Source: Actinomycetota bacterium
GTDB taxonomy: Bacteria > Actinomycetota > Thermoleophilia > BMS3ABIN01
NCBI GenBank assembly: GCA_016235065.1
Contig: JACRMB010000003.1
Span: 531,943-595,942 of the forward strand
Direction: 5' to 3'
DNA length: 64,000 nucleotides
Positions 3,668 to 28,515 of the stretch are shown in pieces. The notes below the pieces were generated by a model. That model worked only from the letters and a program-made list of their open reading frames with translations. It searched no databases and was not told the DNA's origin. Position numbers and translations under genes: made by a program. Every line of letters begins with the position of its first letter. Within the stretch, counting starts at the first letter, position 1.

Positions 3668-3890
3668 GTTTCGAATCCTATAGGGTTGGGCAGCCAATTT
3701 GAAGGAGAAGCGGGCAGCGGGGATAACTTGCAGTCAGGAGCCCGATGCATCCGGGGGAGCACGCTGCGCCCCCTGGATAGCGATTTTACGGGAAACTTAC
3801 ATTCAGATGTTAATAATAAACGGTCATCGTCAAACTCCTCGCCTTGATTTGGTAAGGTAAGGTAAGGGATAAGATTCAAACGGGGTATTG

Positions 3891-6800
3891 ATGTTCACGC
3901 GCGGCAAGAAAAAGTATCTCCTGGGAACAACCGCGGCTGTGCTGGTATTGGTAGCCGCAGTCCTCTTCCTCCCGGGATTCAGCGGTAAGACTCCTCCACC
4001 TGAGACCATCGGCGGCGAGATAATTCGCAGCGGCGCCGATTTCGCAGAAGGTGAGCAGAGCGGCACGGGGATTGCTCCAGCTGCCGGCTCAGGCGAACTG
4101 GCTCTGGCGATTCAGCCTTCGCGCTCGCGGGGTGAATACATCTCCGAACCGGAAGAGGCTGACTTTGCGTTCAATGCCCTGGGATTGCGCTGGAAAGCCG
4201 AACTGCCGACAGGTGCGCGAGTCTCCGCCGAGGTGCGATTCAGCCAGGATGGTACCAGCTGGGGCGAATGGATCAGCGTCAATGAAGACCAGGATCTGCC
4301 AGATCATATTAGCAAGACCAGGTCGGCGGGAGACACCTTCGGCCAGCTGGTTTTTGCTGATAAAGCAAAGTATTTCCAGTACCGTCTTGACCTGCAGGCA
4401 AACACCGAGGGAAATTCACCGGCAATCAGTCGCCTGACCGCCAGTTATATTGACGCCAAGGGCTATCATGAATCTCCATTGTCGGTATCGAAAATCACTC
4501 GTATGGCGGACGCAATATTGGACCCACCCGAGGCAGACGCCGCACCGGGGATCACCACCCGGGCCCAATGGGGCGCCAATGAAGCTCTTATGCAGTGGGA
4601 TCCAGAGTATCAGCCAGTCAAGAAGATAATAGTCCACCATACAGTGACCAGTAATTCCGATCCCGATCCTGCGGCCACTATTCGTTCCATATACTACGAA
4701 CATGCGGTCAGCCGGGGCTGGGGCGACATCGGATACAATTTCCTGATCGACAGTCAGGGCAGGATCTACGAAGGCCGGTACGGCGGCAATTCCGTCATCG
4801 GCGGCCATGCCCTCACCTGGAATCCAGGCTCTATCGGAGTCGCGGCCCTGGGCAATTATGATGTGAGCGAGATATCCCCGGCAATGTATAACGCTTTCGT
4901 CGAACTGATGGTGTGGAAGTCCAACGTCAACATGATCGCTCCCTGGGGTAACGATTATCTGAATGGCACTTACTCGCCCAACTACCTGGGACACCGGGAC
5001 GTGGGCAGCACAGCCTGTCCGGGTGGCTATATGTACGCGCACCTTAACGGCTTCCGCAACGACGCCAACGCCCGCTACTCGCCGATTCCGATCACGACGC
5101 CGTTCATCGAGAAGTGGAATGCACTCAACGGCGCGCCGGGCGGCGCCACCATCGAGCAATATCCCGTCACCGGCGGCAAGGCCCAGGACTTCCAGACAGG
5201 CCGGCTCATCTGGAACCAGTCATTCAACAACACCTACTGGGTGGTCGGCGCCATCCTGAGCCGCTACGATTCCTTCGGCAAGTGGGATAGCTTCCTGGGA
5301 TTGCCCACCAGCGATGAATACGGAGCCGGCAGCGGCAGGGTCAGCGATTTCGAGCATGGGCAGATCTACTGGTCGTCAGCGACCGACGCCCGCGAGGTCC
5401 ATGGCGGCATCCTTTCAAAATATATCGCCGCCGGTGGCCCCTGGCGATTCGGTTTTCCAACAAGCGACGAGTATGAGGTCGCCGGCCACGCCGGTTCGCG
5501 GGAGAGCGACTTCCAGCTGGCCCGGGTCTATTATCGCAACGATGGCGGCGGCACTTATATAACTTATGGCGCCATCCTGGGCCGGTATCTCGCATGGGGC
5601 GGCGCCCCGGCTCTGGGCCTGCCCGCCAGCGACGAATATGACCTGGCCGGAGTCTCCGGCGGAAGGGTCACCGATTTCGACAATGGCCGTATCTACTGGA
5701 CCCAGGCCACCGACGCCCATGCCATCTGGACTGGGCCCTTCAACGATAAATTCACGGCGCTGGGCGGGCCTACCGGGACCTTCGGCCTTCCGGTCGACGA
5801 TGATTTTGCGGCAGGAAGCGGCCGGGCCCAGAACCTGCAGCGGGCGACCATCACCTGGTCGAATGCGCTTGGCGCCCATGTTGTCTACGGGGGCATCCGC
5901 GGCAAGTACAACCTCATGGGTGGGCCTACGGGCTATCTGGGGCTGGCGACGACCGACGAGATGGACGTGCCCGGCATCAGCGGCGCCCGTGAGAGCGATT
6001 TCCAGAACGGACGGATCTTCTGGCACGCTTCCACCGGCGAGCATTCGGTAATCGGTGGTATCAACCAGCTTTATACGGCTCTCGGTGGATCTCCGGTGCT
6101 TGGCATCCCGGCTACCGACGAGTTTGATGTTCCCGGCGTCAGTGGCGGCCGCGAGAGCGATTTCTCCATGGGCCGCATCTATTATCATCCGACCGCCGGT
6201 ACTCACGAGGTCTACGGCGGCATCCTGGCCAAGTACCTGGAGCTGGGCGGCGCCAGCGGAATAATAGGCATGCCCGTGACCGGTGAGATCGATGTTTCCG
6301 GCGTATCCGGCGCCCGCGAGAGCGACTTCCAGAACGGACGCATCTACTGGTCCGGCGGCACCGGCGAACACGCTGTCTACGGCGGCATCCTGATCAAATA
6401 CGTTGAGTACGGCGGGCCGGCATCAGCCCTCGGGCTGCCGGTGACCGACGAATATACCTACGGCTCCGGCCGGCGCAGTGATTTCCAGGGAGGCTTCATC
6501 TACTGGGATGCCGCGAACGGCGCTCAGGTTTACGTCGGCACCGCGACTACCGTGACCGCTGATTCTACCTACGAAGCGCGTGACGCCAGCAACAACCTGC
6601 TGGGCACTATCGCAGCAGGGCAGACCGCGTCTGTGCGCTACAGCGGCGGCATCTACAGCCTGCAGGCTCCGGGTGTCTTTTATTCGGGAAGCTCCTATAT
6701 CCGCTTCGCGGCCAGCGCCGGCATCATGCAGGTAAGTTCTTATCACGATGTTCCCGGCTGGAATCCCAGTCTTGACGACAACAAGTTCCGGGGCACGATC

Positions 6801-7412
6801 GAGGTCAGGTATTCACCGGTATCAAGCAAAGTCTGGGTGGTCAACGAGCTGCCAGTGGAGCACTACATGAAGGGTATCGCCGAGACCAGCTCCGGCACTC
6901 CCGCAGATTTCCTGAAGACGATGACGGTCGCCGCCCGTAGCTACGCTATCTGGCATCTCGACCGGGGCGGCAAGTACGGCGGCTCGGAGATATTCCATCT
7001 AAAGAACAGCCGCAACGGCAACGGCGACGACCAGGTCTACAAGGGCTACGGCCTCGAGGCCCGCTTCCCCGAATTGGTAAGCGCGGTGAACGGCACAGCC
7101 GGGCAGGTGGTCAAGTACAACGGCAGCGTCGCCATGACCTCGTATTTCTCCAATTCAGACGGCAGGACCCGTTCGGCCCTGGAAGTCTGGGGTGTGGATT
7201 ACTGGCCCTGGCTCCAGAGTGTGCCCGATCCGGATTGCAACGGCATGTCTCTCAACGGGCACGGGGTCGGACTCAGCGGCACCGGTGCCCTGGAGAGGGC
7301 CGGCCGCGGCGACAGCTATACGACCATCCTCGGCTATTATTACACTGGAACTACAGTCGCTCCCGTGGATACAAGCGGCAGTATCAGGATCGCTATCACC
7401 AGCGTTTCCTGA
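3891..7412 (+). CDS. Secreted N-acetylmuramoyl-L-alanine amidase with LGFP repeats and SpoIID/LytB domain
   Basis: 1173 residues from ATG at 3891 (a TTG directly upstream adds one residue). A basic N-terminus and a hydrophobic segment at about 8-27 form a signal anchor. An Amidase_2/PGRP domain at about 220-385 has the zinc-site motifs IIVHHT and GHRDVGSTACPG. Eight complete LGFP-type repeats and a ninth half-repeat follow (about 425-885; for example LGLPTSDEY and RESDFQNGRI), a wall-binding module common in Actinobacteria. The C-terminal part (about 980-1150) is SpoIID/LytB-like, with TVAARSYAIWH, YFSNSDGRT and GHGVGLSGTGA. Predicted to cut and remodel peptidoglycan outside the cell. The gene stands alone, with 163 bp before the exporter operon. 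Confidence 0.9.
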   Translation: MFTRGKKKYLLGTTAAVLVLVAAVLFLPGFSGKTPPPETIGGEIIRSGADFAEGEQSGTGIAPAAGSGELALAIQPSRSRGEYISEPEEADFAFNALGLRWKAELPTGARVSAEVRFSQDGTSWGEWISVNEDQDLPDHISKTRSAGDTFGQLVFADKAKYFQYRLDLQANTEGNSPAISRLTASYIDAKGYHESPLSVSKITRMADAILDPPEADAAPGITTRAQWGANEALMQWDPEYQPVKKIIVHHTVTSNSDPDPAATIRSIYYEHAVSRGWGDIGYNFLIDSQGRIYEGRYGGNSVIGGHALTWNPGSIGVAALGNYDVSEISPAMYNAFVELMVWKSNVNMIAPWGNDYLNGTYSPNYLGHRDVGSTACPGGYMYAHLNGFRNDANARYSPIPITTPFIEKWNALNGAPGGATIEQYPVTGGKAQDFQTGRLIWNQSFNNTYWVVGAILSRYDSFGKWDSFLGLPTSDEYGAGSGRVSDFEHGQIYWSSATDAREVHGGILSKYIAAGGPWRFGFPTSDEYEVAGHAGSRESDFQLARVYYRNDGGGTYITYGAILGRYLAWGGAPALGLPASDEYDLAGVSGGRVTDFDNGRIYWTQATDAHAIWTGPFNDKFTALGGPTGTFGLPVDDDFAAGSGRAQNLQRATITWSNALGAHVVYGGIRGKYNLMGGPTGYLGLATTDEMDVPGISGARESDFQNGRIFWHASTGEHSVIGGINQLYTALGGSPVLGIPATDEFDVPGVSGGRESDFSMGRIYYHPTAGTHEVYGGILAKYLELGGASGIIGMPVTGEIDVSGVSGARESDFQNGRIYWSGGTGEHAVYGGILIKYVEYGGPASALGLPVTDEYTYGSGRRSDFQGGFIYWDAANGAQVYVGTATTVTADSTYEARDASNNLLGTIAAGQTASVRYSGGIYSLQAPGVFYSGSSYIRFAASAGIMQVSSYHDVPGWNPSLDDNKFRGTIEVRYSPVSSKVWVVNELPVEHYMKGIAETSSGTPADFLKTMTVAARSYAIWHLDRGGKYGGSEIFHLKNSRNGNGDDQVYKGYGLEARFPELVSAVNGTAGQVVKYNGSVAMTSYFSNSDGRTRSALEVWGVDYWPWLQSVPDPDCNGMSLNGHGVGLSGTGALERAGRGDSYTTILGYYYTGTTVAPVDTSGSIRIAITSVS

Positions 7413-14851: not shown

Positions 14852-14929
14852 GGCAGTGATTATATACGCAAAGTGGCGGCGCATGCGGGCTATCGCCCGT
14901 GGACGGCGCCGTGGTCTATAATCACCGTT

Positions 14930-15862
14930 ATGAATCAACCGCATCCGCTGAAAAGAAAGATAGCCAAGCTCCTGTTCGCCCTGAAGGCGGCAATGAAGCT
15001 TATGAGCCGCAAGGCCGACCGCCGGGCGCTGGTGCTGGACATCCTGCGCAAGCCCTTCTATGACCAGGACACCGCCCGGGAGTTGGAGCTGGTCAAATGC
15101 GTGCTCGAAAGCCAGGACCGCCAGGCGAAGCATCCCGAAGACACCATGCGCGAGCGGGAGCTGATCCGGCATATCCTCACCAACCGGGAAAAGCAGCAGG
15201 TCATTCAGGATATCTTCGAGAGCCCCTACTACAGCCAGGACACCTCGGACGATCCTTATCACGGGAATTTCAGCTGGTTCATCGACGAGGTCAACAAGAT
15301 CGGGAAGCCGCGTATCCTCGAGCTTGGCGCCAGGAAGATCAACCAGAAGGAGCGCTTCGCGGATTATGGCGAGTACGTTGTCTTCGACATCCATGAGGAT
15401 GAGGATGTTGATGTAGCCGGAGACATCCACCAGCTTTCCACCTACTTCGAGGAGGGCCAGTTCGACGCGGTCTTCATGGTCTCGGTGATGGAGCACCTTG
15501 CTATGCCCTGGAAGGCCGTCCTTGAGATCAATAAGGTGATGAAGCCCGGCGGACTGCTGTTCATCTCGACCCACCCGGTCTGGCCCGCCCACGCGCTGCC
15601 CTGGGATTTCTGGCGTTACTCTAAGGAAGCTTTCCCGGTGCTGCTTAACCGTTTCACCGGTTTCGAGGTGCTAAAAGACGATGAGGGGCTGCCCTGCCTG
15701 ATCCTGCCATTCGGCAAGGACCAGTCACTGATGAACCTCCATCGCGAGCCCGCCAACCTGGGCGTGAGCGTGATCGCCAGGAAGACCGGCACGGCCGACG
15801 AGCGGCTTTCCTGGGGGCTGGAAGTTGATGAGATGATCGATTCGGTTTATCCTCGGGGGTAA
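14930..15862 (+). CDS. Class I SAM-dependent methyltransferase-like protein
   Basis: 310 residues from ATG at 14930. The first 110 residues are helical and charged (KRKIAKLLFALKAAM; repeated YDQDTARELELVK / YYSQDTSDD). The methyltransferase fold follows: motif I RILELGARKIN, then VVFDIHEDEDVDVAGD, VFMVSVMEHLAMP and KPGGLLFISTHPVWP. Motif I lacks the second glycine of GxGxG, so cofactor binding may be altered. A TATAAT at 14917-14922 lies only 7 nt before the ATG, which would give a leaderless mRNA. A role in modifying surface glycans is inferred from context. Confidence 0.8.
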   Translation: MNQPHPLKRKIAKLLFALKAAMKLMSRKADRRALVLDILRKPFYDQDTARELELVKCVLESQDRQAKHPEDTMRERELIRHILTNREKQQVIQDIFESPYYSQDTSDDPYHGNFSWFIDEVNKIGKPRILELGARKINQKERFADYGEYVVFDIHEDEDVDVAGDIHQLSTYFEEGQFDAVFMVSVMEHLAMPWKAVLEINKVMKPGGLLFISTHPVWPAHALPWDFWRYSKEAFPVLLNRFTGFEVLKDDEGLPCLILPFGKDQSLMNLHREPANLGVSVIARKTGTADERLSWGLEVDEMIDSVYPRG

Positions 15863-15920: not shown

Positions 15921-18815
15921 GTGATTCTTCACCATCGAGCAGGATGGAAGAAAAGGTTGATTATCGCTCTGAGCGAAGGCGTCCTGCTGTTGCTGGTTTA
16001 TATCTTTTTGGCTATGGCATCGCCGGCGCGGGGGATGTCTTCAGCAGAACCAGACCTCGCGAACCCCGCAGCCCGCGAAAATTTCGAGCGTAGCTTCAGC
16101 CCCGGGAATTATCGCGGCCCGGGGAATATCGTCGGCCTGGAGACGCCGTTCGGTTCGGATGTGTCGTCCGGCCCGGAATCTGCAGCGAGTCCATCTGGCA
16201 TCTCCGGCTCATACCTCGACGCCGATCCATCAAAGCCAGGAGTTCAGATCCCGTTGCTGCCATCGCCTTCGCAGTCGTCACCGCGAAGCCCCGCCACCTT
16301 CTACATGGACACCGCCACCCCATGGCTCCTCGGCAGCGTGCCACTCTCCAGCGGTTTCGATTATCCCGTCGGCGGACTAAACCACGAAGGCTTCGACATG
16401 ATCAACTGCTTCGGTTGTGGCGTCGACTGGCTGGGTGATTACGGCCATACGGCTGAGGACTACGCCAACGGGCGCGAGGGCGACGCGGTTTATTCGATCA
16501 GCGAAGGCATCGTTCTCTGGCGCGGCGTCGGCCCCAATGCTTATGGGAACGTGCTGATCGTCCAGCACAAAGTCCAGGGCACCTTCATCTACTCCCTCTA
16601 TGCCCATCTGCAATCCATCAATGTCGTACCGGGTCAGGTAGTCGGCCGCCGGCAGCAGATCGCCACGGTCGGATCGAGCGGCTCTTTCCTGCCTCATCTC
16701 CATTTCGAGGTCAGGACCCGGCCGCATATCGCCGCCCGCGGTTATACTTTTTATTCGTTCACGGGCGCCAGCATCAACGCTTACGACATGACCTTCTACG
16801 CCCCGTCCTGGTACATCAACAACCGGCGGCATCTCGACGATCCGTTCGGCGGCATCGACGGTGCTGAGATCGTCCCCGGTGGATTCAAGGTGAACGGCTG
16901 GGCGCTCGATCCCAACACTTCCAGCCCGATCGCCGTCCACGCATATGTCGACGGCCGGGGAGCTGCCATCGCCACAGCGAACCAGAACCGCTGGGACGTG
17001 GGCTACAACTTCCCCGCATCAGGTTCACAGCATGGATTCAGCGCTTCTATCCCGGCTGGCCCGGGCCTTCATAATGCCTGCATTTTCGCAATAAATGCCG
17101 GAGCTGGCACCAACAGCCAGGTGGGCTGCTATCTGTATAACCTGAGCGCCAGCCCCATTGGCCGGCTCGACGATGCCAGCATCGACGGCAGCGGCCAGCT
17201 GAATGCCACAGGCTGGGCGCTCGATCCGGACACCGCCTCGCCGGTCTATGTCCACTTCTATATCAACGGCCAGTTCGCGGGATCAGGCAACGCCGGAAAC
17301 AGCCGCGTCGACATCGCCGACCGCTTTCCGGAATTCGGCGCCGGGCACGGTTTCTCGACGGCCCTGCCGAAGCTTGCAGGCAGTAACAGCGTTTGCGCTT
17401 ACGGGATAAATGTGGGCCCCGGGGGTAACGCCCTGCTCGGCTGCAGGACGGTGGTTGCCGGCCTTGATGATTTTCCTGCCGTGACGCCCCCGGCCGGACG
17501 CCATTACAACTGGACATATTTCGATGGCGTCGGTGGCTCTGACTGGCTGCTGATGGCCGAACCAGCCGATTATTCGACGCCAGCGCCGACACTCCACTTC
17601 GACCTTAACATCCAGGGGAGGGGCGTTGATTTCGGATTGCAGGGTAATCCGGCCGTGCCACCTGGGTTTGCGCTTTTCAGTGGCATCGGTGGAATAGCCG
17701 GCGGCCCCGTGGTCGCGACTTCCCTCACTGGTGACGAAGCCCTGATGTCGCAGCGGATCCTCTGGGCTGGTAAATCACTCGAGGAAGTACCCGGCATCGA
17801 CTCGGCGGACCTTTCTGACCATTATTACTGGCCATGGTATGACCAGAACAGTTCCGGGTTCGCCGACTGGGTGATGCTGGCAAATCCTGGTATTGAGTCC
17901 GTTTATTACGAGATCACCATCGATGGAAACAATCCCGGTGCCGGCTCAACCGGGACTATCGCGCCTGGGGCGCTGGCAACGGCGGCTTTCCCTGGCGTGA
18001 TCGGCGGTCCTGTGGAGCTACGGGCCTGGACCGGGCCGGACAAGCTCACCCCGGCGCAGCTAATGGCTTCCCAGCGAGTGCTGTCAGCCGGCAACGCGGC
18101 TTTCAACGAGGAGCCGGGCATTCCCGCGGCGGCGCTGTCCGACCACTATGTATGGACCTGGTACGATTCCGTCGGCACCGTCGGCCGTGACTGGCTGCTG
18201 CTGGCCAACACGAATGCGGCAGCCGTTTACTACGAGATAAGCATCGGTGGCAACGATCCCGGTTCGGGCTCGAGAGGCACAATCGAACCGGGCGGGCTCG
18301 CCTATCCCTCCTTCCCTGAAAAAACCGGGGGACCTGTCGAAGTGCGGGCCTGGCTCTCAGAGACTGACGGCGATGGCAATCAGCTCAAGACCAATTCCGC
18401 AGACATCGTGGCGTCGCGGCGTTCGATCTGGGGACCTTCCTTCGAGGAAGTGCCGGGCCAGCCGTTTGAGGCTTTGGCTGCGGATTATCACTGGACCTGG
18501 TATGACCAGGCAAGCCCCGGATCGCAGAACTGGATGATGGTGTCCAATCCCACCGATATCCCTGTCTACTACGTGATCACCATGCGGGGGAACTATATGG
18601 GCGGGTCCGACTACGCTGGTACCCTGAATCCGGGAAGCAGCGCCTTCCCCAGCTTCCCTGCTGAGATAGGAGGTCCGATCGAGGTCAAGGGCTGGCAGCT
18701 GAATCCTGACGGCTCGCCGAATTACAGCCAGCCAGCTGTTTTCCTCGCCTCCCAACGGGTGCTCTGGAACGGATACTTCAATGAGATGACCGGGACGGTA
18801 TTGGGGCCCGGTTAG
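15921..18815 (+). CDS. Secreted M23 peptidase with four-repeat WYD tail (paralogue A)
   Basis: 964 residues from GTG at 15921. A basic start and a hydrophobic segment (VLLLLVYIFLAMASPARG) form the export signal. A LytM/M23 metallopeptidase domain lies at about 140-290. Zinc ligands are visible in GHTAEDYANG (H..D) and HLHFEVR (HxH), so it should be active on peptidoglycan cross-links. Two modules of the GWALDP(N/D)T type follow (about 310-520). The C-terminal 438 residues are four tandem repeats, each with a (W/Y)xWYD start, an NP turn, GGPVE, a SQR motif and EVPG-like end, closing with VLWNGYFNEMTGT. No sortase motif or membrane anchor follows. It is the first of four consecutive genes sharing this tail. 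Confidence 0.9.
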   Translation: MILHHRAGWKKRLIIALSEGVLLLLVYIFLAMASPARGMSSAEPDLANPAARENFERSFSPGNYRGPGNIVGLETPFGSDVSSGPESAASPSGISGSYLDADPSKPGVQIPLLPSPSQSSPRSPATFYMDTATPWLLGSVPLSSGFDYPVGGLNHEGFDMINCFGCGVDWLGDYGHTAEDYANGREGDAVYSISEGIVLWRGVGPNAYGNVLIVQHKVQGTFIYSLYAHLQSINVVPGQVVGRRQQIATVGSSGSFLPHLHFEVRTRPHIAARGYTFYSFTGASINAYDMTFYAPSWYINNRRHLDDPFGGIDGAEIVPGGFKVNGWALDPNTSSPIAVHAYVDGRGAAIATANQNRWDVGYNFPASGSQHGFSASIPAGPGLHNACIFAINAGAGTNSQVGCYLYNLSASPIGRLDDASIDGSGQLNATGWALDPDTASPVYVHFYINGQFAGSGNAGNSRVDIADRFPEFGAGHGFSTALPKLAGSNSVCAYGINVGPGGNALLGCRTVVAGLDDFPAVTPPAGRHYNWTYFDGVGGSDWLLMAEPADYSTPAPTLHFDLNIQGRGVDFGLQGNPAVPPGFALFSGIGGIAGGPVVATSLTGDEALMSQRILWAGKSLEEVPGIDSADLSDHYYWPWYDQNSSGFADWVMLANPGIESVYYEITIDGNNPGAGSTGTIAPGALATAAFPGVIGGPVELRAWTGPDKLTPAQLMASQRVLSAGNAAFNEEPGIPAAALSDHYVWTWYDSVGTVGRDWLLLANTNAAAVYYEISIGGNDPGSGSRGTIEPGGLAYPSFPEKTGGPVEVRAWLSETDGDGNQLKTNSADIVASRRSIWGPSFEEVPGQPFEALAADYHWTWYDQASPGSQNWMMVSNPTDIPVYYVITMRGNYMGGSDYAGTLNPGSSAFPSFPAEIGGPIEVKGWQLNPDGSPNYSQPAVFLASQRVLWNGYFNEMTGTVLGPG

Positions 18816-18870
18816 AATATCCACCGGCAATCAACGATAATGTCGTATGGCTGGATTGAGGCGTTAAAAA

Positions 18871-21537
18871 ATGTCCGGATATCACAGACCATCGATTCTT
18901 CTTTTCGTGGCCAGCGCGCTGGCTTGCGTCCTGTCGCTGGCAGCTTATGCCGCAGCGGCATCAAACCCGGCGCCGGCAGGCCCTGGCAACCTGGCTAACG
19001 CCGCTCCTCTCAACCTTCCGCCCGGAACTTCGACAGCCGATGCTCCCGATGCCTCCGCGGATCTGTCCGTCGCTTCGGCCACGAGTTTTGCTTCTCCGAT
19101 CCTGGCAGCCAGCATCCCAATATCCAGCGGTTTTGACTATCCCGTCGGCGGCGCCCTGCACCATGAGGGCTTCGAGATGAACAACTGTTTCGGCTGTGCC
19201 TGGAACGACTGGCTCGGCCATACCGGCGAGGACTTCGATAACTACAGGTGTGGCGATCCGGTCTATTCTGTCTCCGAGGGAGTCGTCGTCTACCGGGGCC
19301 TCGGCCCGGGAGCCTGGGGTAATGTGATCATCGTCCAGCACCTGGTCAGGGGGCGTTTCATCTACTCACAATACGCCCACCTGGAGACCATGAATGTCGT
19401 GCCCGGCCAGATCGTCGGCCGCAGGCAGCAGATCGGCACCGTGGGCACTACCGGCACGGTTGCCTGCCACCTGCATTTCGAGATCAAGGACCAGCCGCGC
19501 ATCGGCCACGGCTATACCGGCTGGCCTTTCAGCGGCCTCACGGTCTACGACGATCCCATCAACTACTGGGCGCCTTCCTGGTATATCGAGAACACCCGGC
19601 ACCTGGATTCGCCGTTCGGCACCATCGATGGCACCAGGGTGATCCCTGGCGGGTTCAAGCTCTGGGGCTGGGCGCTGGATCCCAATACGTCCGATTCGAT
19701 CCCCGTGCATGTCTACCTGGACCGGCTGGGAGCTGCGATCCTGACGGCCTCTGATTACCGTGGTGATGTCGGCGCCGCTTATCCCACTCTGGGGTCTTAT
19801 CACGGGTATAGCTCGGGTATCACCGCCGCCCCGGGAACTCACGAGGCCTGCGTCTATGGCATCAACACCGGCGCCGGCGACAACACCCAGATCGAGTGCC
19901 GCACGGTCACGCTGACAGGTAATCCGATCGGCGGCCTGCGGGACCTGTCGCTGAGCGGCGGGAGCATCCAGGCGGACGGCTGGGCAATCGACCCCGACAC
20001 GTCCGCGCCGATCGGCATCCATTTCTACATCAACGGCCAGTTCGCCGGCTCCTCCGATGCGGTGCTCGACGATCAGAGTGTCCTCAGCAGCTATCCAGAG
20101 TATGGTGCCGGTCATGGATTCAGCGCCTTATTACCTAAGTTTGCAGGTGATAACCAGGTCTGCGCCTATGGCCTTAACACCTCAGCCGGCACGAACACCC
20201 TGCTCGGCTGCGAGACGATCAATGTGGGCCTGGACCAGTTTCCCCCGGCGCCGGCCGCCTCCGGACGCCATTACTACTGGCCATATTTCGACGGCGCCGG
20301 AGCCTACAACTGGCTGCTCATGGCCAGCCCCAGCACAGGGACACAGCTGAACTTCGACCTCAACCTCCAGGGAAGGCAGCTCAACCTGGGCCTGTTCGGC
20401 AATCCGGCGGTCGCTCCCGGCGAGACATTCTTTGCCGGTTTCAGGGGCATCGCCGGCGGTCCCGTGGTGACGACTTCCACCAGCGGGGAAAGGGCCATAG
20501 TCAGCCAGCGCATCCTCTGGGGCGGCCGGTCGCTGGACGAGGTGCCAGGAACAGAGTCCGGCAGACTGTCTGACCATTTCTACTGGACCTGGTACGACCA
20601 GCAGACCCCTGGCTTCGCCGACTGGGTGATGGTAGCGAATCCCGGAAGTTCATCCATCTACTATGAGATCACAGTCGCCGGACAGGACCCCGGCGCCGGG
20701 TCGAGCGGCACCGTCGGGCCGGGAGCTCTCGCCGCGCCCGCATTCCCGGGAATTCAAGGTGGGCCGGTCGAGCTGCGCGCCTGGACCGACTCCGGCAAGA
20801 CAACAACGGCGACGGTCATGGCGTCGCAGCGGGTCCTCTCCGGATACACAACCGCCTTCAACGAAGTCCCCGGCATCCCGGCATCGGAGCTTTCCGACCA
20901 CTATCTCTGGACCTGGTACGACAGCATCGGCGCTGCCGGGCGTAACTGGGTGATGATCGCCAACCCGGCCGGCGGGCCTGCCGAGCTTTATTACAGCATC
21001 CGGCTGGGCGGCGCCCAGGAAGTCGCATGCGGCGGTCCCGTAGCTCAGAACGGATTTGCTTTCTGGAAGAATCCCGACCGGCGCGACGGCCCGGTTGAAC
21101 TGAACACCTTCGCCGACGCGAACTGCACGGTTCTTGCCGATTCGGTAGCATCGCAGAGGATCATCTGGGGTCCGTCCTTCGAGGAGGTCCGCGGACAGCC
21201 TTTCGAGACTCTCCTGCCGGAGAACTACTGGACCTGGTACGACCAGCAGACTCCGGGGGCGCTGAACTGGGTCATGGTAACCAATCCGGGTGCTGCACCG
21301 CTGTACTATCAGATAAGGATCGGCGGCGGCGATCCGGGAGCGGGTTCGACAGGCACGCTTGATCCTGGCCGGTATGCTTTCCCATCATTTGCAGGGGTAA
21401 TCGACGGGCCGGTGGAGGTTAGAGCCTGGCTGACAAACCCAGACGGCACGCCGGATCTCAGCCAGCCAGCCCCAGTCCTGGCTTCGCAGAGGGTCCTTTG
21501 GAGCGGTTACTTCAACGAGGTGCTGGGGCAGGGCTGA
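18871..21537 (+). CDS. Secreted M23 peptidase with four-repeat WYD tail (paralogue B)
   Basis: 888 residues, a clear paralogue of the preceding gene with 55 bp between them. The signal peptide runs to about residue 30 (LACVLSLAAYAAAA). The M23 domain at about 85-235 keeps GHTGEDFDNY and CHLHFEIK. Two GWALDPNT/GWAIDPDT modules sit at about 255-460. Four WYD-tail repeats occupy 466-888 and end VLWSGYFNEVLGQ. Repeat 3 (YLWTWYDSIGAAGRNW) carries the variant GG-P-ELYYSIRLGG insert also seen in the third paralogue. Predicted secreted wall endopeptidase. The tandem arrangement indicates local duplication and possibly different timing or substrates. Confidence 0.9.
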   Translation: MSGYHRPSILLFVASALACVLSLAAYAAAASNPAPAGPGNLANAAPLNLPPGTSTADAPDASADLSVASATSFASPILAASIPISSGFDYPVGGALHHEGFEMNNCFGCAWNDWLGHTGEDFDNYRCGDPVYSVSEGVVVYRGLGPGAWGNVIIVQHLVRGRFIYSQYAHLETMNVVPGQIVGRRQQIGTVGTTGTVACHLHFEIKDQPRIGHGYTGWPFSGLTVYDDPINYWAPSWYIENTRHLDSPFGTIDGTRVIPGGFKLWGWALDPNTSDSIPVHVYLDRLGAAILTASDYRGDVGAAYPTLGSYHGYSSGITAAPGTHEACVYGINTGAGDNTQIECRTVTLTGNPIGGLRDLSLSGGSIQADGWAIDPDTSAPIGIHFYINGQFAGSSDAVLDDQSVLSSYPEYGAGHGFSALLPKFAGDNQVCAYGLNTSAGTNTLLGCETINVGLDQFPPAPAASGRHYYWPYFDGAGAYNWLLMASPSTGTQLNFDLNLQGRQLNLGLFGNPAVAPGETFFAGFRGIAGGPVVTTSTSGERAIVSQRILWGGRSLDEVPGTESGRLSDHFYWTWYDQQTPGFADWVMVANPGSSSIYYEITVAGQDPGAGSSGTVGPGALAAPAFPGIQGGPVELRAWTDSGKTTTATVMASQRVLSGYTTAFNEVPGIPASELSDHYLWTWYDSIGAAGRNWVMIANPAGGPAELYYSIRLGGAQEVACGGPVAQNGFAFWKNPDRRDGPVELNTFADANCTVLADSVASQRIIWGPSFEEVRGQPFETLLPENYWTWYDQQTPGALNWVMVTNPGAAPLYYQIRIGGGDPGAGSTGTLDPGRYAFPSFAGVIDGPVEVRAWLTNPDGTPDLSQPAPVLASQRVLWSGYFNEVLGQG

Positions 21538-21697
21538 TCGTTGCTGGGCGTCTCGGTGGCTATCGGTTCTGCGCCCGCTGAACCGGTGAAACTGCTCTTC
21601 AGGCCAAGGTTTATCGCTGATTCTGACGATACTATTATTGGACGCGGGCTGTTCAAGTTTATCGACGGCTGCCCGAAGAACCAGCATCGAAAGAGTA

Positions 21698-24600
21698 ATG
21701 AGACACCTCGCACGTCATCTCAGAGCCTTCGGGGGAATTATAAAAGGGGCTATCCCGATCTCACTTGTCCTCATGGCAGGACTTCTTGCCCTGACCGCAG
21801 CCCCCGCGCTTGCCGCCCCGCCGACGGTCACGCCCGCGGCGCCGAGTGTCAATGAGGCTCCCGACTACGCGTCCGAGAACTGGGCAGATCCCTGGGATTA
21901 CAATAACGTCGAGGACCTCAGCCTGACCCCGGTCGTGCAGTCGGTCAACGTCTCCGGCCTCGCCATGAACGGCGGCAGCCTCAGCTTCAACAACTCAAAC
22001 GGCTACATCGTCCCGGTCTGGTCCTCAGGCGCGTTCGCCCATGGGCGGGACGCTGACATCCATCCAGTAGACGCCGGCAGGTACACGCGCCTGTCGTTCC
22101 GGATGTATTCCAGCGTGTCGTCCAACGCCGGCCAGATCTCCTGGTTCAGCTGCGCCGGCGCTGTCCCCTCCTGCTGGGGCGCCATGCCGCTGCAGGTGCA
22201 ACAGGGATGGAACACCTACGATGTGCTCCTGGCCCCGGGATACGGACCGGCGGCGCCTACACCCTGGTCGGGTGCTATCAAGGTGCTTCGTCTGGCGCCC
22301 GGTGCGGCCGGCAACATCCAGCTCGACTGGATGCGCGTCTATCAGCCCGGCGGCAGCGGCGTCAATCTAACGGTTTCCGGTGGCTACGCTGACGAAGTCT
22401 GGTGGGACACTGACACCGACCCCAATAACAACGATCCCTCGCAGGTCGGCGGCAAGAGCGCCGGCCGGCTGGCCTGGTACACGCCCAACGGCGGCACGGT
22501 CAACTTCCCTTCGGCGCAGTTCCCGCCGGGCACTTATTACTTTTACTCCAAACAGGGTGGTCAGGTCTCTGGCTACAGCAGCCCGGTGACGGTTGACGCG
22601 GCGCCTGAACCGGTCGTCATCGATCCGGATATCGCCGGCGGCGACGACTACGCAACCGTGGTTCGCGGCGACGCCTGGGATTTCTGGCAGGCGGGCGACG
22701 CCTGGCAGGTCAACAACTCAACCAAATCTGTCGCCGCGGGCATGTTGCGAGGAAGTTACGCGGGTCCCTATCCAAACGACCCCCAGGTGATCCTGCCGCA
22801 GGCCGGCCAGATCAACGCCAGTCTCTATCACCGCCTGACTTACCAGGTCTATTATGATGGGCCATTCGGCCTGGATAATGCTCCCGGCGGCGGCATGGTT
22901 GCCCGCACCATCTGGACGGTGAATCAGGGCGGAGTACCCGGATACCACGATTCCCAGGACATGATCGTCTTCCCCGGGTGGCAGACGGTAAGCGTCGACC
23001 TCAAGACCAACCCGCCTTCGCTGGCGGAAGATGAAGCTTCGACTAATCCGATCGGCTGGGGCGGCCCTCTCAGCGGCTGGGTGGGAAGCTTCCGCTTCGA
23101 CCCGCACGAGGACCCGGGCGGCCGTGTCTGGTATCTGGAGGATATCCGCCTGGCCCGTGACGACCGCGGCACACCGAACTTCGACATCCAGTTCCAGGAT
23201 AACGGCTGGGAGTCTGGAACAACCGCCGAACTCTGGGCGGACGCCGACACTTCCGGCTATAACGGCTACCAGATCGCCAGCGGCATCCCGGTTAATCAGG
23301 GTGTGAACATCTACAACTGGAACGGCGGCGGCGTGCCGGCGTGGGGGATCTGGCATATCCATGTGAAGCTGACCGATCCGGACGGAACGATCAGTCGCGC
23401 TTATTCGACCGGGCCTGTGGAGATAAGCCCACCGCCGGATGCGACGCCGCCGGTGGTCAGCGTCACGGCGCCATCAGGCGGGATCTCCGTAGGTGACCCC
23501 GTGATAACGGCGACAGTCAGCGACGCGGCGCCTTCCAGCGGCATCAACGGTGCTTCGGCGACGCTCAGCCTTAATGGCGGTACCACGACTCCCTGCACGG
23601 TCGTCGGCGCGAATATCAGCTGCCCGACCAGCGGTCTTGAGAACGGCCATTACAGCTCGACCGTCTCGATCTCAGATAACTCCGGTAACTGGGGAACCGC
23701 CAGCGGCTCATTCGACGTCGCCGGCCAGAGCTATGACCTTTACAGCAGTTACTTCACCTGGTACGACAATGTGGGCGGCTCAAACTGGGTACTGATGTCT
23801 AACCCGACCGGCTCGGTTGACGACATCACTTTCGATCTCGCCATCGCCGGCGCGGTCAAGCCCATCGCCCCTCTTTCGGGCCAGGCGGTCGGTCAGGCCC
23901 ATCCGGGGCAGTCAGTCTTTGCCAGCTATCCGGGCTTGAGGGACGGCCCGGTAGAGGTGGGCTACAAGGCGATTGGCGGCACCGGCGACAAGGCTCTGGC
24001 CAGCCAGCGCATCCTCTGGGCGGGCAAATCCCTGGAGGAAGTGCCGGCGACCGAGAGCACCAAGCTTTCAGATCACTTTTACTGGACCTGGTACGACCAG
24101 CAGACTCCGGGCTATGCCAACTGGGTGATGGTGGCCAATCCCGGGGCGGTCGAGGTCTATTACCAGATCACTATCGCCGGTGAGGATCCCGGCACCGGTA
24201 GTACAGGAACTATCGCCGCGGGAGGATACGCCATGGCTGCCTTCCAGGGAAAGATCGGCGGCCCGGTAGAGGTCAGGGCCTGGAGCGGTGATCCTGACCC
24301 GGCTCAGGGCTCGCCCGCCAATGTCATGGCGTCCCAGCGGGTGCTCGCCAACTACGGAGGCGCCTTCAACGAAGTCCCGGGCATACCGGTGAACGAACTT
24401 TCCAGCGACTACCTCTGGACCTGGTACGACAGCGTCGGTACGGCCGGCCGCAACTGGATCATGATCAACAACCCCGGGAGCGGACCGCCCGAGCTTTATT
24501 ACAAGATCAAGGTCGGCGGCACGGAGGAAGTGCAGTGCGACGGACCTGTGCTGCAGAATGGCTACGCATTCTGGAACAAGACCAACCTGCTGAACGGCCC

Positions 24601-25066
24601 GGTCGAGCTGAAGACATATTCCGATTCTGGCTGTACCATAGCCGCGAACTCGGTGGCATCCCAGCGCGTCGTCTGGGGACCCTCCTTCGAAGAGGTGCCG
24701 GGCACGCCGCTGACATCGCTGGCTGCCGAATACCACTGGACCTGGTACGACCAGAAGAGCGCCGGCGCCCAGAACTGGGTCATGGTGGCGCCGAAGCCTG
24801 GAGAGGCCGACATCATCACAGTCGTCGCCAGCTTCACGGATGAGAACGGAGTGCCGCGGACAAGCGGCCCCCACGACATCAACCCCGCGGACCCCAATCC
24901 TGATAATCGCCGCTGGTACTGGACCTCACCGAACACCCGTGGCGGACCGGTTCAGGTTATCGCCTACAAGAAGGACGCTCCCGGCACGCCCAAGCAGGTA
25001 ATCGTCTCCCAGCGTGTACTCTGGGGCGGGTACTTCAACGAGGTGCTGGGGACGGTGCTGAACTAG
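21698..25066 (+). CDS. Secreted beta-sandwich protein with four-repeat WYD tail (paralogue C)
   Basis: 1122 residues from ATG at 21698. A start 60 bp upstream in frame is possible but adds no signal-like sequence. The signal peptide reads ISLVLMAGLLALTAAPALAAPP. The first 620 residues contain two related jelly-roll-like segments resembling carbohydrate-binding modules (GWNTYDVLLAPG; GWQTVSVDLKTNPP; LDWMRVYQPGG), then an Ig-like domain beginning VVSVTAPSGGISVGDPVI. No catalytic motif was recognised. The tail (about 684-1122) has four repeats starting YFTWYDNVGGSNW and ending VLWGGYFNEVLGT. It may be an adhesin or a structural surface-glycan binder. Function is inferred from fold impressions only. 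Confidence 0.82.
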   Translation: MRHLARHLRAFGGIIKGAIPISLVLMAGLLALTAAPALAAPPTVTPAAPSVNEAPDYASENWADPWDYNNVEDLSLTPVVQSVNVSGLAMNGGSLSFNNSNGYIVPVWSSGAFAHGRDADIHPVDAGRYTRLSFRMYSSVSSNAGQISWFSCAGAVPSCWGAMPLQVQQGWNTYDVLLAPGYGPAAPTPWSGAIKVLRLAPGAAGNIQLDWMRVYQPGGSGVNLTVSGGYADEVWWDTDTDPNNNDPSQVGGKSAGRLAWYTPNGGTVNFPSAQFPPGTYYFYSKQGGQVSGYSSPVTVDAAPEPVVIDPDIAGGDDYATVVRGDAWDFWQAGDAWQVNNSTKSVAAGMLRGSYAGPYPNDPQVILPQAGQINASLYHRLTYQVYYDGPFGLDNAPGGGMVARTIWTVNQGGVPGYHDSQDMIVFPGWQTVSVDLKTNPPSLAEDEASTNPIGWGGPLSGWVGSFRFDPHEDPGGRVWYLEDIRLARDDRGTPNFDIQFQDNGWESGTTAELWADADTSGYNGYQIASGIPVNQGVNIYNWNGGGVPAWGIWHIHVKLTDPDGTISRAYSTGPVEISPPPDATPPVVSVTAPSGGISVGDPVITATVSDAAPSSGINGASATLSLNGGTTTPCTVVGANISCPTSGLENGHYSSTVSISDNSGNWGTASGSFDVAGQSYDLYSSYFTWYDNVGGSNWVLMSNPTGSVDDITFDLAIAGAVKPIAPLSGQAVGQAHPGQSVFASYPGLRDGPVEVGYKAIGGTGDKALASQRILWAGKSLEEVPATESTKLSDHFYWTWYDQQTPGYANWVMVANPGAVEVYYQITIAGEDPGTGSTGTIAAGGYAMAAFQGKIGGPVEVRAWSGDPDPAQGSPANVMASQRVLANYGGAFNEVPGIPVNELSSDYLWTWYDSVGTAGRNWIMINNPGSGPPELYYKIKVGGTEEVQCDGPVLQNGYAFWNKTNLLNGPVELKTYSDSGCTIAANSVASQRVVWGPSFEEVPGTPLTSLAAEYHWTWYDQKSAGAQNWVMVAPKPGEADIITVVASFTDENGVPRTSGPHDINPADPNPDNRRWYWTSPNTRGGPVQVIAYKKDAPGTPKQVIVSQRVLWGGYFNEVLGTVLN

Positions 25067-25213
25067 GTTCAGGCTGCGAAGCACCCGGCCGGCCGCAACA
25101 CCGGGCTGAGCTCCAAGCAGCGCCGGGTTCTCGGAAACTCCCCCAAATAAGCCTGTTTCTGATATTGTAGAATGCCGTAGTGACAAGCACTGCGCATTCA
25201 GGAACAGAGCCCA

Positions 25214-25912
25214 ATGCCCCACGTTTACCAACGCCAGATAGACATCGACAGCGGCGACTCGCTCGCCCTCATAGCCCGCAAGATCACCCGTGGCAGCCGC
25301 GTGCTGGAACTCGGGGCGGCAACAGGTTATTTCAGCCGTTTCCTCAAGGAGGAGCTGGGCTGCACGGTAGACGGTATCGAGCTCGATGCGGTCATGGCCG
25401 CCGAAGCCGCGCCGTTCTGCGGCAAGCTGGTGGTCGGCGACCTTGGCAAGGAGCGGCTGCTGGACCATTTTAAGCAGGGTGCATATGACTTCATCATCTG
25501 CGCTGATGTGCTTGAGCATCTTTACAGCCCCGAGGCGGTGCTGGAACAGCTGCCGGCGCTGCTGGCATCGGGAGGCAATGACGGCCAGCACGGCAAGGTC
25601 ATCGTGTCGATCCCCAATATTGGTTACGCCGGCGTCATACTCGATCTGATCGAGGGCGGCTTCCAGTATCGTGACGAGGGCATCCTCGACCGCACGCATA
25701 TCCGCTTCTTCACGAGAGGCAGTTTCGAAGGCATCCTCAGCACGGTCGGCTACGAGGTGGAATCGGTCGAGCCAGTGCGCCGGGCCCTCGAGGAGAGCGA
25801 GTTCTTCGGCAGGCTCGACCAGATGCCGGTGCCGCTGAAGAATTATCTTTTTGCCAGGCCTGACGCGGATGCCTATCAGTTCGTGTTCGTCATCCGGCCT
25901 GTGGGGACTTGA
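25214..25912 (+). CDS. Class I SAM-dependent methyltransferase
   Basis: 232 residues. Motif I VLELGAATGYF at about 31-41, acidic strand-2 end VDGIELD, motif DFIICADVLEHLYSPE and a later strand KVIVSIPNIGY define a Methyltransf_11/23-type fold. LDRTHIRFFTRGSFEGIL is typical of sugar- or glycolipid-modifying methyltransferases in polysaccharide loci. It lies between paralogue C and the GH26 gene, with 147 bp upstream. The substrate is unknown. Confidence 0.87.
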   Translation: MPHVYQRQIDIDSGDSLALIARKITRGSRVLELGAATGYFSRFLKEELGCTVDGIELDAVMAAEAAPFCGKLVVGDLGKERLLDHFKQGAYDFIICADVLEHLYSPEAVLEQLPALLASGGNDGQHGKVIVSIPNIGYAGVILDLIEGGFQYRDEGILDRTHIRFFTRGSFEGILSTVGYEVESVEPVRRALEESEFFGRLDQMPVPLKNYLFARPDADAYQFVFVIRPVGT

Positions 25913-26073
25913 ACGAGTTAGCCGGGTGAATGCACAACGTAAATATCAATCGTATAAACCTCCCTGCTAGCGGCATTCCCAAGAAATTTCGTTTACAAAT
26001 TATCAACATTGACCAGGGATGTTATTTGTTATAGTTTTTAGCATATATTTGAGCGATCGCGAGAGGCGGCGAA

Positions 26074-28515
26074 ATGAGAAAACTCAGGCTCATCTTTTCA
26101 TCGTTTGCAATGGCAATGATTTGCTCTCTTATGATTATCCCGCTCGTTCAAGCGCAGACTTCGTACCCCGATGGCCCACAAATAGGTGCTTTTCTTCCTA
26201 ATCCCAATCAATACAATCCTAATCCATGGAACGATACTCAATTTGAGCAGTTATCAGGCCACAATCTTGACATTTTTTTATGGTACCAAGACTGGACGGG
26301 TAACTATAGTGCTCCCAATCCACCAGTCATTCAAATAGCATCCGAAGTTGCTTCTGCAGCGAGCGCTGGACACACAATCCAACTGGCATGGGAGCCGCAT
26401 GAACAGGGAGCGCCATATGTTCCCTCGCCACAATGCAGCCCTACTGCGCAGCAAGGCCAACTTTCTTTACAATGCATGGCACAAGGTGGTTATGACGCGA
26501 GCCTCATAATTCCGTGGGCGGATGCTTTAAAGAATTTTAAGGATGCTCAGGGTAATCCATATACTGTCCTCTTTCGTCCGATGTGTGAAATGAATGGCGA
26601 TTGGGTGGATTGGGGAACAACGAATCCAACTAACTCGTATTACATTCAGGCATGGCAGCACATTCATGACGTTTTTTATGAACGAGGCGCTTCAAATGTT
26701 ATTTGGGTCTGGTCGCCGAACCGAGACGGTAGTACAACAAGCGCGCAGAACACATTTAATAATTACTATCCAGGTAATAATTGCTTAGGTAGTGATGGAC
26801 AAAGAAATCATCCTTGCGTTGATATTATCGGTATTGACGGATACAACTTCGGAACGGAATGTACCAATCCAACTTGTGGATGGGTGTCAAATTGGCAAAA
26901 CTTGGGTCAAGTTTTTGGCCCAAGTTATGACGTTTTTGCACATAATCAGCAAACCATGAATATGCCAATAATGATTGCAGAGATGTCATCAACCGAGAAT
27001 GGCGGTGATAAGGCGTCGTGGATTACATCAGCATATACTTCGTGGCTTCCGTATAGATTCCCGCGAGTTGTCAATGTCACATGGTTTAATGAAAGAAAAC
27101 CTGAAGGACTGAATGGAGGATCTCCGATTATCGATTGGAGTATTGCAAGTTCGACAGAAAGCCAGCAGGCTTTTCAATCTGCTATGCAAAGCCTGAACGA
27201 TCACACCTATTTTATGAATTGGTACGATAATATCGGTGGGGATAATTGGGTGATGATAGCAAATCCCGGTGTCAATAACGTCTCTGCGGATCTGTCTATT
27301 CCTGGAGTTTTCCCCGGGGATACATCGATAACTATTCCTTTGTCCATTAATCCGCAAAGTACAGGACTATTTGCTAGAAGCAATTCAAGGGGTGGTCCAG
27401 TAAAGATTACGACTCACAATAATACAAATGTCATAGTAAGCCAACGAATGAATTATCCGAAAGGATACAGCGGAAATTCATTTGAAGAAATTCTAGCTCG
27501 AGACTACAACAATCTATCTAGCCTTTATTATTGGCCGTGGTACGATACGAAGGATTCCCGCTTTAGCAGTGGAGTCTACATTCAGATAGCAAACATAAAT
27601 CCATTCGAAATTTATTACGAGATAAAGATTGGTGAAGAGTCAAATCCTTGTCTGAAGAATGGGGGGTGCGGCACGATCTCGCCATCCGGAACAGGATTAA
27701 ACAGTATGGTATTTCCAACCTTCGCGAACATCCAGAGTGGCCCGGTTGAGGTTCAAACTTGGGTCTCCGAAATTGATGAATCAGGCAATCAGAAGAAACT
27801 TTCACCTGCATTCAGCGTGCCTTCACAACGCCTGCTCTTTAACGGAAATGCTCTAAACGACACGCCGGGAACATCAGCTTCGGAGTTGTCTGACCATTAT
27901 ATTTGGACCTGGTATGATCTATATGATCCAAGGGTAAACGGTGATTGGATTGTAGTCACCAATCCATCTACGAGTGAAACAGTAACTGCAGTAGTCTCAT
28001 TCTTCGATCAAATTAGTGGCACCCCAGTAAATGTGTCGCATAACATTGCCCCAGGGGATACTTGGCCGTTCTACTTTCCTGGTAAAAGAGGTGGGCCGGT
28101 GGAGATCAAAGCATCTTTGGCGGGATTTGCATGGCCTAGCAATAAGAGAAGTGTAATAGCCTCGCAGCGAGTAATTTGGGGTCCTTCATTTGACGAAGTT
28201 CCAGGCATGCCATTCGATGCACTTAGTAGTGAATACTTCTGGACTTGGTATGATCAGTCGTCGCGGCCGAATGTTCAGGATTGGCTTCTTATAGGAAATC
28301 CTAATGCGGCACAAGTAACCTATACAGTAAAACTCAATGGTGTTACACAGCCCTGTTGGCCTTGCACGCTTTCGGGCGGTGAGACGGCTGTCCTAGCTTT
28401 TTCACCACCACAAAATGGGCCGTTGGAGATTGTCTCTTCTGGCGGAAGCGTAGTAACTTCCAGGCGGATTCTTTGGAATGGATACTTTGACGAGGTCTGG
28501 GGGACTAAAACCTAA
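26074..28515 (+). CDS. Secreted GH26-like glycoside hydrolase with four-repeat WYD tail (paralogue D)
   Basis: 813 residues. The signal peptide ends near LVQA (27). A TIM-barrel domain of GH26 (beta-mannanase) type covers about 35-360: GRF-like start IGAFLPNPNQY, acid/base glutamate E172 in RPMCEMNGDW and likely nucleophile E303 in IMIAEMSSTE. The residue before the acid/base is Cys in place of the usual His. The tail (about 376-813) has four WYD repeats ending ILWNGYFDEVWGT. The gene is clearly AT-richer than its neighbours throughout, including the tail, which suggests arrival by transfer from another lineage. Predicted to cut a mannan-like or related beta-glycan outside the cell. Confidence 0.88.
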   Translation: MRKLRLIFSSFAMAMICSLMIIPLVQAQTSYPDGPQIGAFLPNPNQYNPNPWNDTQFEQLSGHNLDIFLWYQDWTGNYSAPNPPVIQIASEVASAASAGHTIQLAWEPHEQGAPYVPSPQCSPTAQQGQLSLQCMAQGGYDASLIIPWADALKNFKDAQGNPYTVLFRPMCEMNGDWVDWGTTNPTNSYYIQAWQHIHDVFYERGASNVIWVWSPNRDGSTTSAQNTFNNYYPGNNCLGSDGQRNHPCVDIIGIDGYNFGTECTNPTCGWVSNWQNLGQVFGPSYDVFAHNQQTMNMPIMIAEMSSTENGGDKASWITSAYTSWLPYRFPRVVNVTWFNERKPEGLNGGSPIIDWSIASSTESQQAFQSAMQSLNDHTYFMNWYDNIGGDNWVMIANPGVNNVSADLSIPGVFPGDTSITIPLSINPQSTGLFARSNSRGGPVKITTHNNTNVIVSQRMNYPKGYSGNSFEEILARDYNNLSSLYYWPWYDTKDSRFSSGVYIQIANINPFEIYYEIKIGEESNPCLKNGGCGTISPSGTGLNSMVFPTFANIQSGPVEVQTWVSEIDESGNQKKLSPAFSVPSQRLLFNGNALNDTPGTSASELSDHYIWTWYDLYDPRVNGDWIVVTNPSTSETVTAVVSFFDQISGTPVNVSHNIAPGDTWPFYFPGKRGGPVEIKASLAGFAWPSNKRSVIASQRVIWGPSFDEVPGMPFDALSSEYFWTWYDQSSRPNVQDWLLIGNPNAAQVTYTVKLNGVTQPCWPCTLSGGETAVLAFSPPQNGPLEIVSSGGSVVTSRRILWNGYFDEVWGTKT

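Follow-up and report, generated by a model that had tools for sequence, protein, structure and literature searches.

A four-repeat tail of secreted proteins in an uncultured Actinomycetota family: a divergent ASRAH tetrad with a probable role in surface retention

Four secreted proteins with a shared tail

The window analyzed in this study is a stretch of 64,000 nucleotides from an Actinomycetota bacterium of the class Thermoleophilia (assembly GCA_016235065.1, contig JACRMB010000003.1, positions 531,943 to 595,942 of the forward strand). It contains four neighboring genes for secreted proteins that share a C-terminal tail of four repeats, which is referred to here as the WYD tail or WYD tetrad after one of its motifs. 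The proteins were translated and their tails were cut at the WYD motifs to define the repeats (r1 to r4). The resulting features were as follows:

15921..18815, plus strand: secreted protein 1, 964 residues; signal peptide, Peptidase_M23 domain (16446-16718), two GWALDP-type repeats and WYD tetrad
17493..18812, plus strand: WYD tetrad of protein 1 (r1 17493-17810, r2 17811-18134, r3 18135-18473, r4 18474-18812)
18871..21537, plus strand: secreted protein 2, 888 residues; signal peptide, Peptidase_M23 domain (19219-19491), two GWALDP-type repeats and WYD tetrad
20260..21534, plus strand: WYD tetrad of protein 2 (r1 20260-20565, r2 20566-20889, r3 20890-21210, r4 21211-21534)
21698..25066, plus strand: secreted protein 3, 1122 residues; signal peptide, uncharacterized beta-rich N-terminal part and WYD tetrad
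23735..25063, plus strand: WYD tetrad of protein 3 (r1 23735-24064, r2 24065-24397, r3 24398-24718, r4 24719-25063)
26074..28515, plus strand: secreted protein 4, 813 residues; signal peptide, GH26 domain (match 26518-26850) and WYD tetrad
27196..28512, plus strand: WYD tetrad of protein 4 (r1 27196-27513, r2 27514-27885, r3 27886-28221, r4 28222-28512)

All four tails consisted of exactly four repeats of 97–124 residues each, and a W-x-GYFNE/DE block closed every fourth repeat. The scores of repeat-versus-repeat alignments ranged from 46 to 413, compared with a mean of 29 and a maximum of 49 for shuffled sequences (120 pairs, 300 shuffles), and the few pairs that fell inside the shuffle range each involved r1 or r2 of the protein at 26074. 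Moreover, each window repeat was matched best by its positional counterpart in the other proteins (r1 by r1, and likewise for r2 to r4). Thus, the four-repeat tail is real and not a product of chance, and the repeat count, positions and terminal block given in a preliminary description of the window were all borne out. The tails comprised residues 525–964 of protein 1 (440 residues), 464–888 of protein 2 (425 residues), 680–1122 of protein 3 (443 residues) and 375–813 of protein 4 (439 residues), which is slightly more than the 423–439 residues first claimed.

The N-terminal parts of the four proteins differed. As described before, proteins 1 and 2 possessed M23 domains (E-values of 1e-18 and 1e-19, respectively) and protein 4 a GH26 domain (3e-13). 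The N-terminal part of protein 3, which had been called a beta-sandwich, gave only a sub-threshold Ig-like hit. In addition, proteins 1 and 2 contained a second unannotated repeat of about 105 residues with the pattern GW[AT][ILF]DP(D/N)T.PI.VH.Y.(D/N)G, of which two copies each were found between M23 and the tetrad (16880-17480 and 19640-20250). These GWALDP-type repeats of the window proteins had no Pfam match. They were also present in L141, L145, L149 and L153, and the proteins of genome G011 had two or more of them in tandem where the WYD tetrad would be.

Carriers of the tail in the same genome and in its relatives

A search of the bacterium's own genome (2.37 Mb) with the tail of protein 2 returned 67 matches. 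With a hidden Markov model of the repeat, applied to the fetched regions, 29 carrier proteins were identified, of which 28 contained exactly four repeats and one (L041 4065-6131) contained two. About 25 of the tail copies were outside the window. A hydrophobic N-terminal signal-like stretch was found in 28 of the 29 carriers, whereas LPXTG motifs and second membrane segments were absent from all 29. Their partner domains included M23 (twice), GH26 (twice), glucosaminidase-like domains (twice), a GH127-like domain, a thermolysin-type M4 protease, a multicopper oxidase and CAP as well as propellers of the PD40, LVIVD and PSII_BNR types, NosD-type beta-helices and Ig-like domains. Stand-alone tetrads also existed, such as L104 and L031 7698-9131, whose 477 residues held little beyond signal peptide and tetrad. 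The preliminary description had taken a wide occurrence outside secreted wall-active proteins as an argument against an anchoring module. Such an occurrence was found, on the protease, oxidase, CAP, propeller and beta-helix proteins; it does not refute anchoring, and it suggests a general surface tail and not a targeting domain of wall enzymes.

In most carriers, the tetrad formed the extreme C-terminus. It was not C-terminal in L029, L027_3209, L105, L057 and L067: it came straight after the signal peptide in L029 and L027_3209, and in some of these five proteins it lay ahead of 110–300 residues or of a multicopper oxidase. The usual C-terminal position, and the occurrence of the same tail on many secreted proteins across the genome, would suit a sorting signal that a dedicated machinery for export or anchoring recognizes and cleaves off, similar to the C-terminal domain of the type IX secretion system, PEP-CTERM or LPXTG. 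Such a signal is disfavored, however, because the tetrad precedes the multicopper oxidase in L029 4310-8899, a protein of 1529 residues that begins with a signal region. It also fits poorly with the missing LPXTG motif and membrane segment and with a tail that is too large and is a folded four-domain unit, which makes the sorting signal a very improbable explanation.

Among the 60 relatives searched, the WYD tail was identified in 14 of the 19 genomes of the same family, at 6–31 copies each, while three congeners had one degenerate relic each and two genomes had none. Where the tail system was lost, in the congeners L043, L044 and L045, the sole remnant was one degenerate array, with about three repeats that follow Ig-like domains. 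Elsewhere in the class, 41 genomes from other families gave no match to the tail at an E-value of 1e-5. A tail in G373, a genome of another family, was rejected as contamination, given that it was identical to a sequence of G002 and that the bin was 5% contaminated. Similarly, the record L071, titled Geobacter sp., contained a typical WYD tetrad protein and is probably a mis-binned contig. The plasmid and phage collections searched had no match to the tail. The named relatives were metagenome-assembled genomes of uncultured Actinomycetota. Sortase-dependent anchoring of the tails was also rejected, because no sortase signal was found on them despite the sortase in all 19 family genomes.

Exactly four repeats were present in 70 of the 83 ORF pieces of relatives that were scanned, and most of the remaining pieces were interrupted by frameshifts or by the end of a contig. 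For 154 unique four-repeat tails, 588 of 616 repeats had their nearest relative in another tail at the identical position, which shows that the tetrad is inherited as a block.

Fold of the repeat and its remote homologs

No Pfam, NCBIfam or PHROGs model reached its cut-off over the tails of the window proteins and the other carriers scanned in this genome, and SLH, LGFP, CW_binding_2, LysM and other known surface modules gave no profile match over them. A search of PDB sequences with the tail profile returned designed Ig proteins only (E-value of 0.005). Thus, the profile search proposed in the preliminary description matched no characterized domain, and the statement that no named anchor has this pattern is correct at the level of profiles. 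The fold itself, however, is a known one, as the following results indicate.

The tail of protein 2 was modeled by AlphaFold2 with 64 aligned tails, giving a predicted local distance difference test score (pLDDT) of 96.8 and a predicted template modeling score (pTM) of 0.93. The fold search with this whole-tetrad model returned generic sandwiches only (best Z of 6.0, TMq ≤0.16). A single repeat was also folded alone:

20527..20913, plus strand: single-repeat stretch of protein 2 (r2 and flanks), pLDDT 92.3, with the TM1070/ASRT fold

The isolated repeat matched TM1070 (1nc7_A) with a Z of 10.1 over 99 of 116 residues at 2.8 Å, and entries of ASRT, the Anabaena sensory rhodopsin transducer, with Z of 7.1–7.4. 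Unrelated lectins and CBM35 ranked below ASRT (Z ≤5.6). The ASRT match surfaced only with the single repeat and not with the whole tetrad, and no beta-propeller was among the listed matches of either search. ASRT and TM1070 are homotetramers, and De Souza, Iyer and Aravind defined the ASRAH superfamily around them. Their paper predicts sugar binding for the superfamily and describes its secreted members as dyads, or as tetrads on Chloroflexi amidases (PMC2739507).

A phylum-wide search reached distant repeats with a WY[LF]AEG motif in other Actinomycetota, which scored well above the cut-off of DUF5719 (PF18986) where tested. The profiles of WYLAEG and WYD repeats were aligned by hhalign at 96% and 93%, and those of ASRT and WYLAEG repeats at 96% (E-value of 3e-9). 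In PDB sequences, the WYLAEG profile matched 1nc7 and 2ii7 with E-values of 0.0013 and 0.0034, respectively. DUF5719 itself had no match to the window proteins at E-values up to 1; its best score in the family genomes was 17.2 bits, below the Pfam gathering cut-off of 26.2, and it matched 4 of the 64 tails with E-values down to 0.0013, all below the cut-off. Exactly four repeats were found in 24 of the 28 untruncated WYLAEG arrays, and two of the other four were permuted four-domain arrays. The single-copy DUF5719-type proteins L182–L184, which are encoded beside membrane proteins, had 3–4 repeats, the first of which was sometimes degenerate. These counts suggest that the number of domains in actinobacterial ASRAH lipoproteins, which were called dyads in the 2009 paper, may need revisiting.

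The TWYD and W-V-L-x-ANP motifs were invariant or nearly so in the 64 tails and in the consensus of the 154 tails. The hallmarks of the ASRAH superfamily, a conserved Trp that follows a polar residue where strand 1 starts and a near-invariant Asn closing strand 2 at a tight turn, were present, and their equivalence to W7 and N32 of TM1070 was assigned by inspection. Strand 2 reads [ND]W[VI][LM]xANP in the WYD repeats versus SHETACLLN in ASRT. Based on homology and fold, the WYD tail is, with high confidence, best placed as a new divergent family of ASRAH tetrads.

Probable ring closure and circular permutation

Further comparison of the tetrad model with that of the isolated repeat revealed that, within the repeat core, only the last two residues of WYD and the first two of GGPV gained strand in the tetrad, and that they were strand in all four copies. 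In an open chain, one copy of each would be left without a partner, so that this four-for-four pairing points to closure of a ring. The FNEV strand was at the C-terminal end, after r4, in 89 of 99 unique WYD tetrads and before r1 in the other 10, but never at both ends or neither. The underlying script table had read 87, 10, 1 and 1; inspected by eye, its two odd cases (L079 and L140) were ordinary arrays with FNEV at the C-terminal end. Of the 10 tetrads with FNEV before r1, 8 had a recognizable glucosaminidase part. One permuted glucosaminidase tail is that of L039 5373-7379. WYLAEG arrays occurred in the phases [1-102]x4, [11-102]+3+[1-10] and [36-101]+3+[1-35], each of which sums to four domains. 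Because natural permutations are found in both the WYD and WYLAEG branches, the N- and C-termini must be neighbors. On the strength of the models and permutations, the tetrad is quite likely to form a closed four-domain ring.

In family f51, neighboring Amidase_3 and SpoIID genes in L315 (G320) and L316 (G205) had WYLAEG arrays in two different circular-permutation phases; in L315, the two adjacent genes belong to one genome. The two-repeat tail of L113 retained repeats of the r1 and r4 types, as would be compatible with two half-rings that form a dimer.

The rigid model, with its pTM of 0.93, the high copy number and the stand-alone tetrads are also compatible with a structural or oligomerization scaffold, such as an S-layer-like or extracellular-matrix block, that presents the N-terminal domains and has no ligand of its own. 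TM1070 and ASRT, however, are closed tetramers and not lattice formers, the one-chain ring has no obvious free interface, and by sequence no carrier looks like an abundant S-layer protein. A scaffold is therefore quite unlikely.

Exchange with LGFP, GWALDP and SLH modules

Homologous glucosaminidases, with identities of 52–77% within the family, carried the WYD tetrad in most family genomes. In two of the congeners that lost the tetrad, the homologs L187 and L189 had 6–8 LGFP repeats instead. The homolog L192 of genus g6 possessed three GWALDP repeats, and L197 of another family an SLH domain. Similarly, the thermolysin-type protease of G011 was 66% identical over 404 residues to that of the genome studied here; the match ended with residue 775, and the tail starts at the very next residue, while the G011 protein had GWALDP repeats further on instead. 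Among the matches listed, LGFP-bearing ORFs numbered at least 5, 4 and 11 in tetrad-less congeners compared with 0–3 in tetrad genomes. SLH is a known wall-binding module. LGFP is a proposed wall-anchoring repeat (PMC2447325, PMC3314691). Given that homologs carry LGFP, GWALDP or SLH there, the tail takes the slot of surface-retention modules, and these swaps suggest that it probably retains its carriers at the surface in general. Together with the missing LPXTG motif and second membrane segment, they make anchoring or targeting, as was proposed for one module shared by otherwise unrelated secreted proteins, its best reading.

The tail might instead be a carbohydrate-binding module (CBM) that steers enzymes to external polysaccharides or the walls of other cells and not to the bacterium's own surface. 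Sugar binding is predicted for the ASRAH superfamily (PMC2739507), lectins and CBM35/36 are the fold neighbors below ASRT, and several carriers are glycan-active (two GH26, one GH127-like, two glucosaminidase and two M23 proteins). Most carriers, however, are not glycan-active (M4 protease, multicopper oxidase, CAP, propellers, NosD helices and Ig-like proteins), and the tetrad is exchanged with LGFP and SLH, both of which are tied to the protein's own cell wall (for LGFP: PMC3314691). Substrate targeting thus appears unlikely. For the tail as a surface-retention module, the superfamily and the neighbors in fold space leave a glycan ligand at about even chances.

Our favored explanation, which we regard as reasonably probable as a whole, is that the tail is an ASRAH tetramer joined covalently, which serves as a general module for surface retention and probably binds glycan. 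The protein would be exported by its N-terminal signal peptide, and its tail would fold into a ring. This single chain would be equivalent to a covalently joined ASRT/TM1070-like tetramer, in which four beta-sandwich ASRAH domains close upon each other, strand elements in the WYD and GGPV regions bridge adjacent domains, and the terminal FNEV strand serves as Velcro. The folded ring would then retain some 30 different enzymes and binding proteins at the surface non-covalently, and its four inter-domain clefts would probably bind a glycan of the wall or the surface.

Several results weigh against this explanation. The direct hhalign comparison of the ASRT and WYD profiles gave 0.5%, i.e., no match, so that the link needs the WYLAEG intermediate and the fold, and WYD tails lack the ligand signature SHExxCxxN of ASRT. 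The ring geometry is an inference from the strand pairing and the permutations, and a coupling analysis (mutual information and mean-field direct coupling analysis, effective number of 119) gave no usable r4–r1 signal, nor one for known neighbors. L041 and L113 are genuine two-repeat arrays. Moreover, genus g6 has neither tetrads nor LGFP, GWALDP repeats co-occur with the tetrad in window proteins 1 and 2, so that the modules are not strictly alternatives, and the sortase in 19 of 19 family genomes means that the cell has a further route for anchoring proteins.

More tentatively, and at slightly less than even odds, self-closing four-domain ASRAH rings could form a class of modules for surface retention that extends across the phylum Actinomycetota. 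In that case, the WYD branch would be the main non-covalent anchor of a whole uncultured family, with the number of four domains fixed by ring closure and with permutants that move the Velcro strand between the ends.

Genomic neighborhood

In the window, the tail genes adjoin a locus for a Wzm/Wzt exporter and glycosyltransferases. Two further neighbors were as follows:

3888..7412, plus strand: Amidase_2, LGFP repeats (nine matched stretches) and SpoIID; LGFP as the alternative wall module, no tetrad
25214-25912: MetW-like methyltransferase gene, between proteins 3 and 4

As the methyltransferase gene splits the third protein from the fourth, the four are neighbors and not strictly consecutive, as they had been called. 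The suggested specific tie to the adjacent polysaccharide was also not upheld: 25 of the 29 carriers are encoded elsewhere in the genome, and ten neighbors of tail genes at other sites were mostly housekeeping or unrelated genes. Co-localization with glycan loci as a rule was rejected, being unsupported outside the window. Finally, two overlapping antisense ORFs, 12767-15592 (minus strand) and 14699-15862 (plus strand), have domain matches (DUF7657/DUF7654 and methyltransferase) that begin well inside, and their true starts are probably downstream.

Significance and comparison with known systems

If correct, this explanation would indicate how an unannotated tail on about 1% of the bacterium's genes folds and assembles and what it probably does, and the same assignment would reach DUF5719, a family of "function unknown" that is spread over Actinomycetota. 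It would also illustrate how a homotetramer became a ring of one chain, for which the natural circular permutants are evidence, and the tail could be used to predict the surface proteins of these uncultured bacteria. Moreover, sugar binding by ASRAH tetrads, as predicted in 2009, would become directly testable with small constructs.

Similar to ASRT (2II7-2IIA) and TM1070 (1NC7) of the ASRAH superfamily (PF07100), the WYD tail has their single-repeat fold and, as a model, their tetrameric assembly. Different from them, its four domains are in one chain, it is extracellular, and PF07100 does not detect it. The WYLAEG/DUF5719 repeats are remote homologs with about 10% identity in the profile alignment; they share the four-repeat count and the presence on wall enzymes (M23, Amidase_3 and SpoIID), but have another motif set and another position of the permuted strand. 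LGFP (PF08310) and SLH (PF00395) occupy the same slot on homologous proteins, although their repeats are unrelated to the WYD tetrad and have no sequence similarity to it. Beta-propellers with Velcro closure are likewise rings of repeats whose terminal strand can come from either end (PMC8458387). This similarity is an analogy of mechanism only, given that the WYD repeats are two-sheet sandwiches of about 100 residues and not 4-stranded blades. The closest precedent is the tetrads of Chloroflexi N-acetylmuramoyl-L-alanine amidases, which also consist of four tandem domains on a secreted protein and are predicted to bind wall sugars. There, these tetrads are on amidases only, and the text consulted mentions neither circular permutations nor module swaps, whereas the WYD tail is a single divergent family found on some 30 proteins per genome, whose N-terminal domains differ widely. 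Thus, amidase-fused tetrads were already described in 2009, and what is new here is the WYD family, its general use and its permutations.

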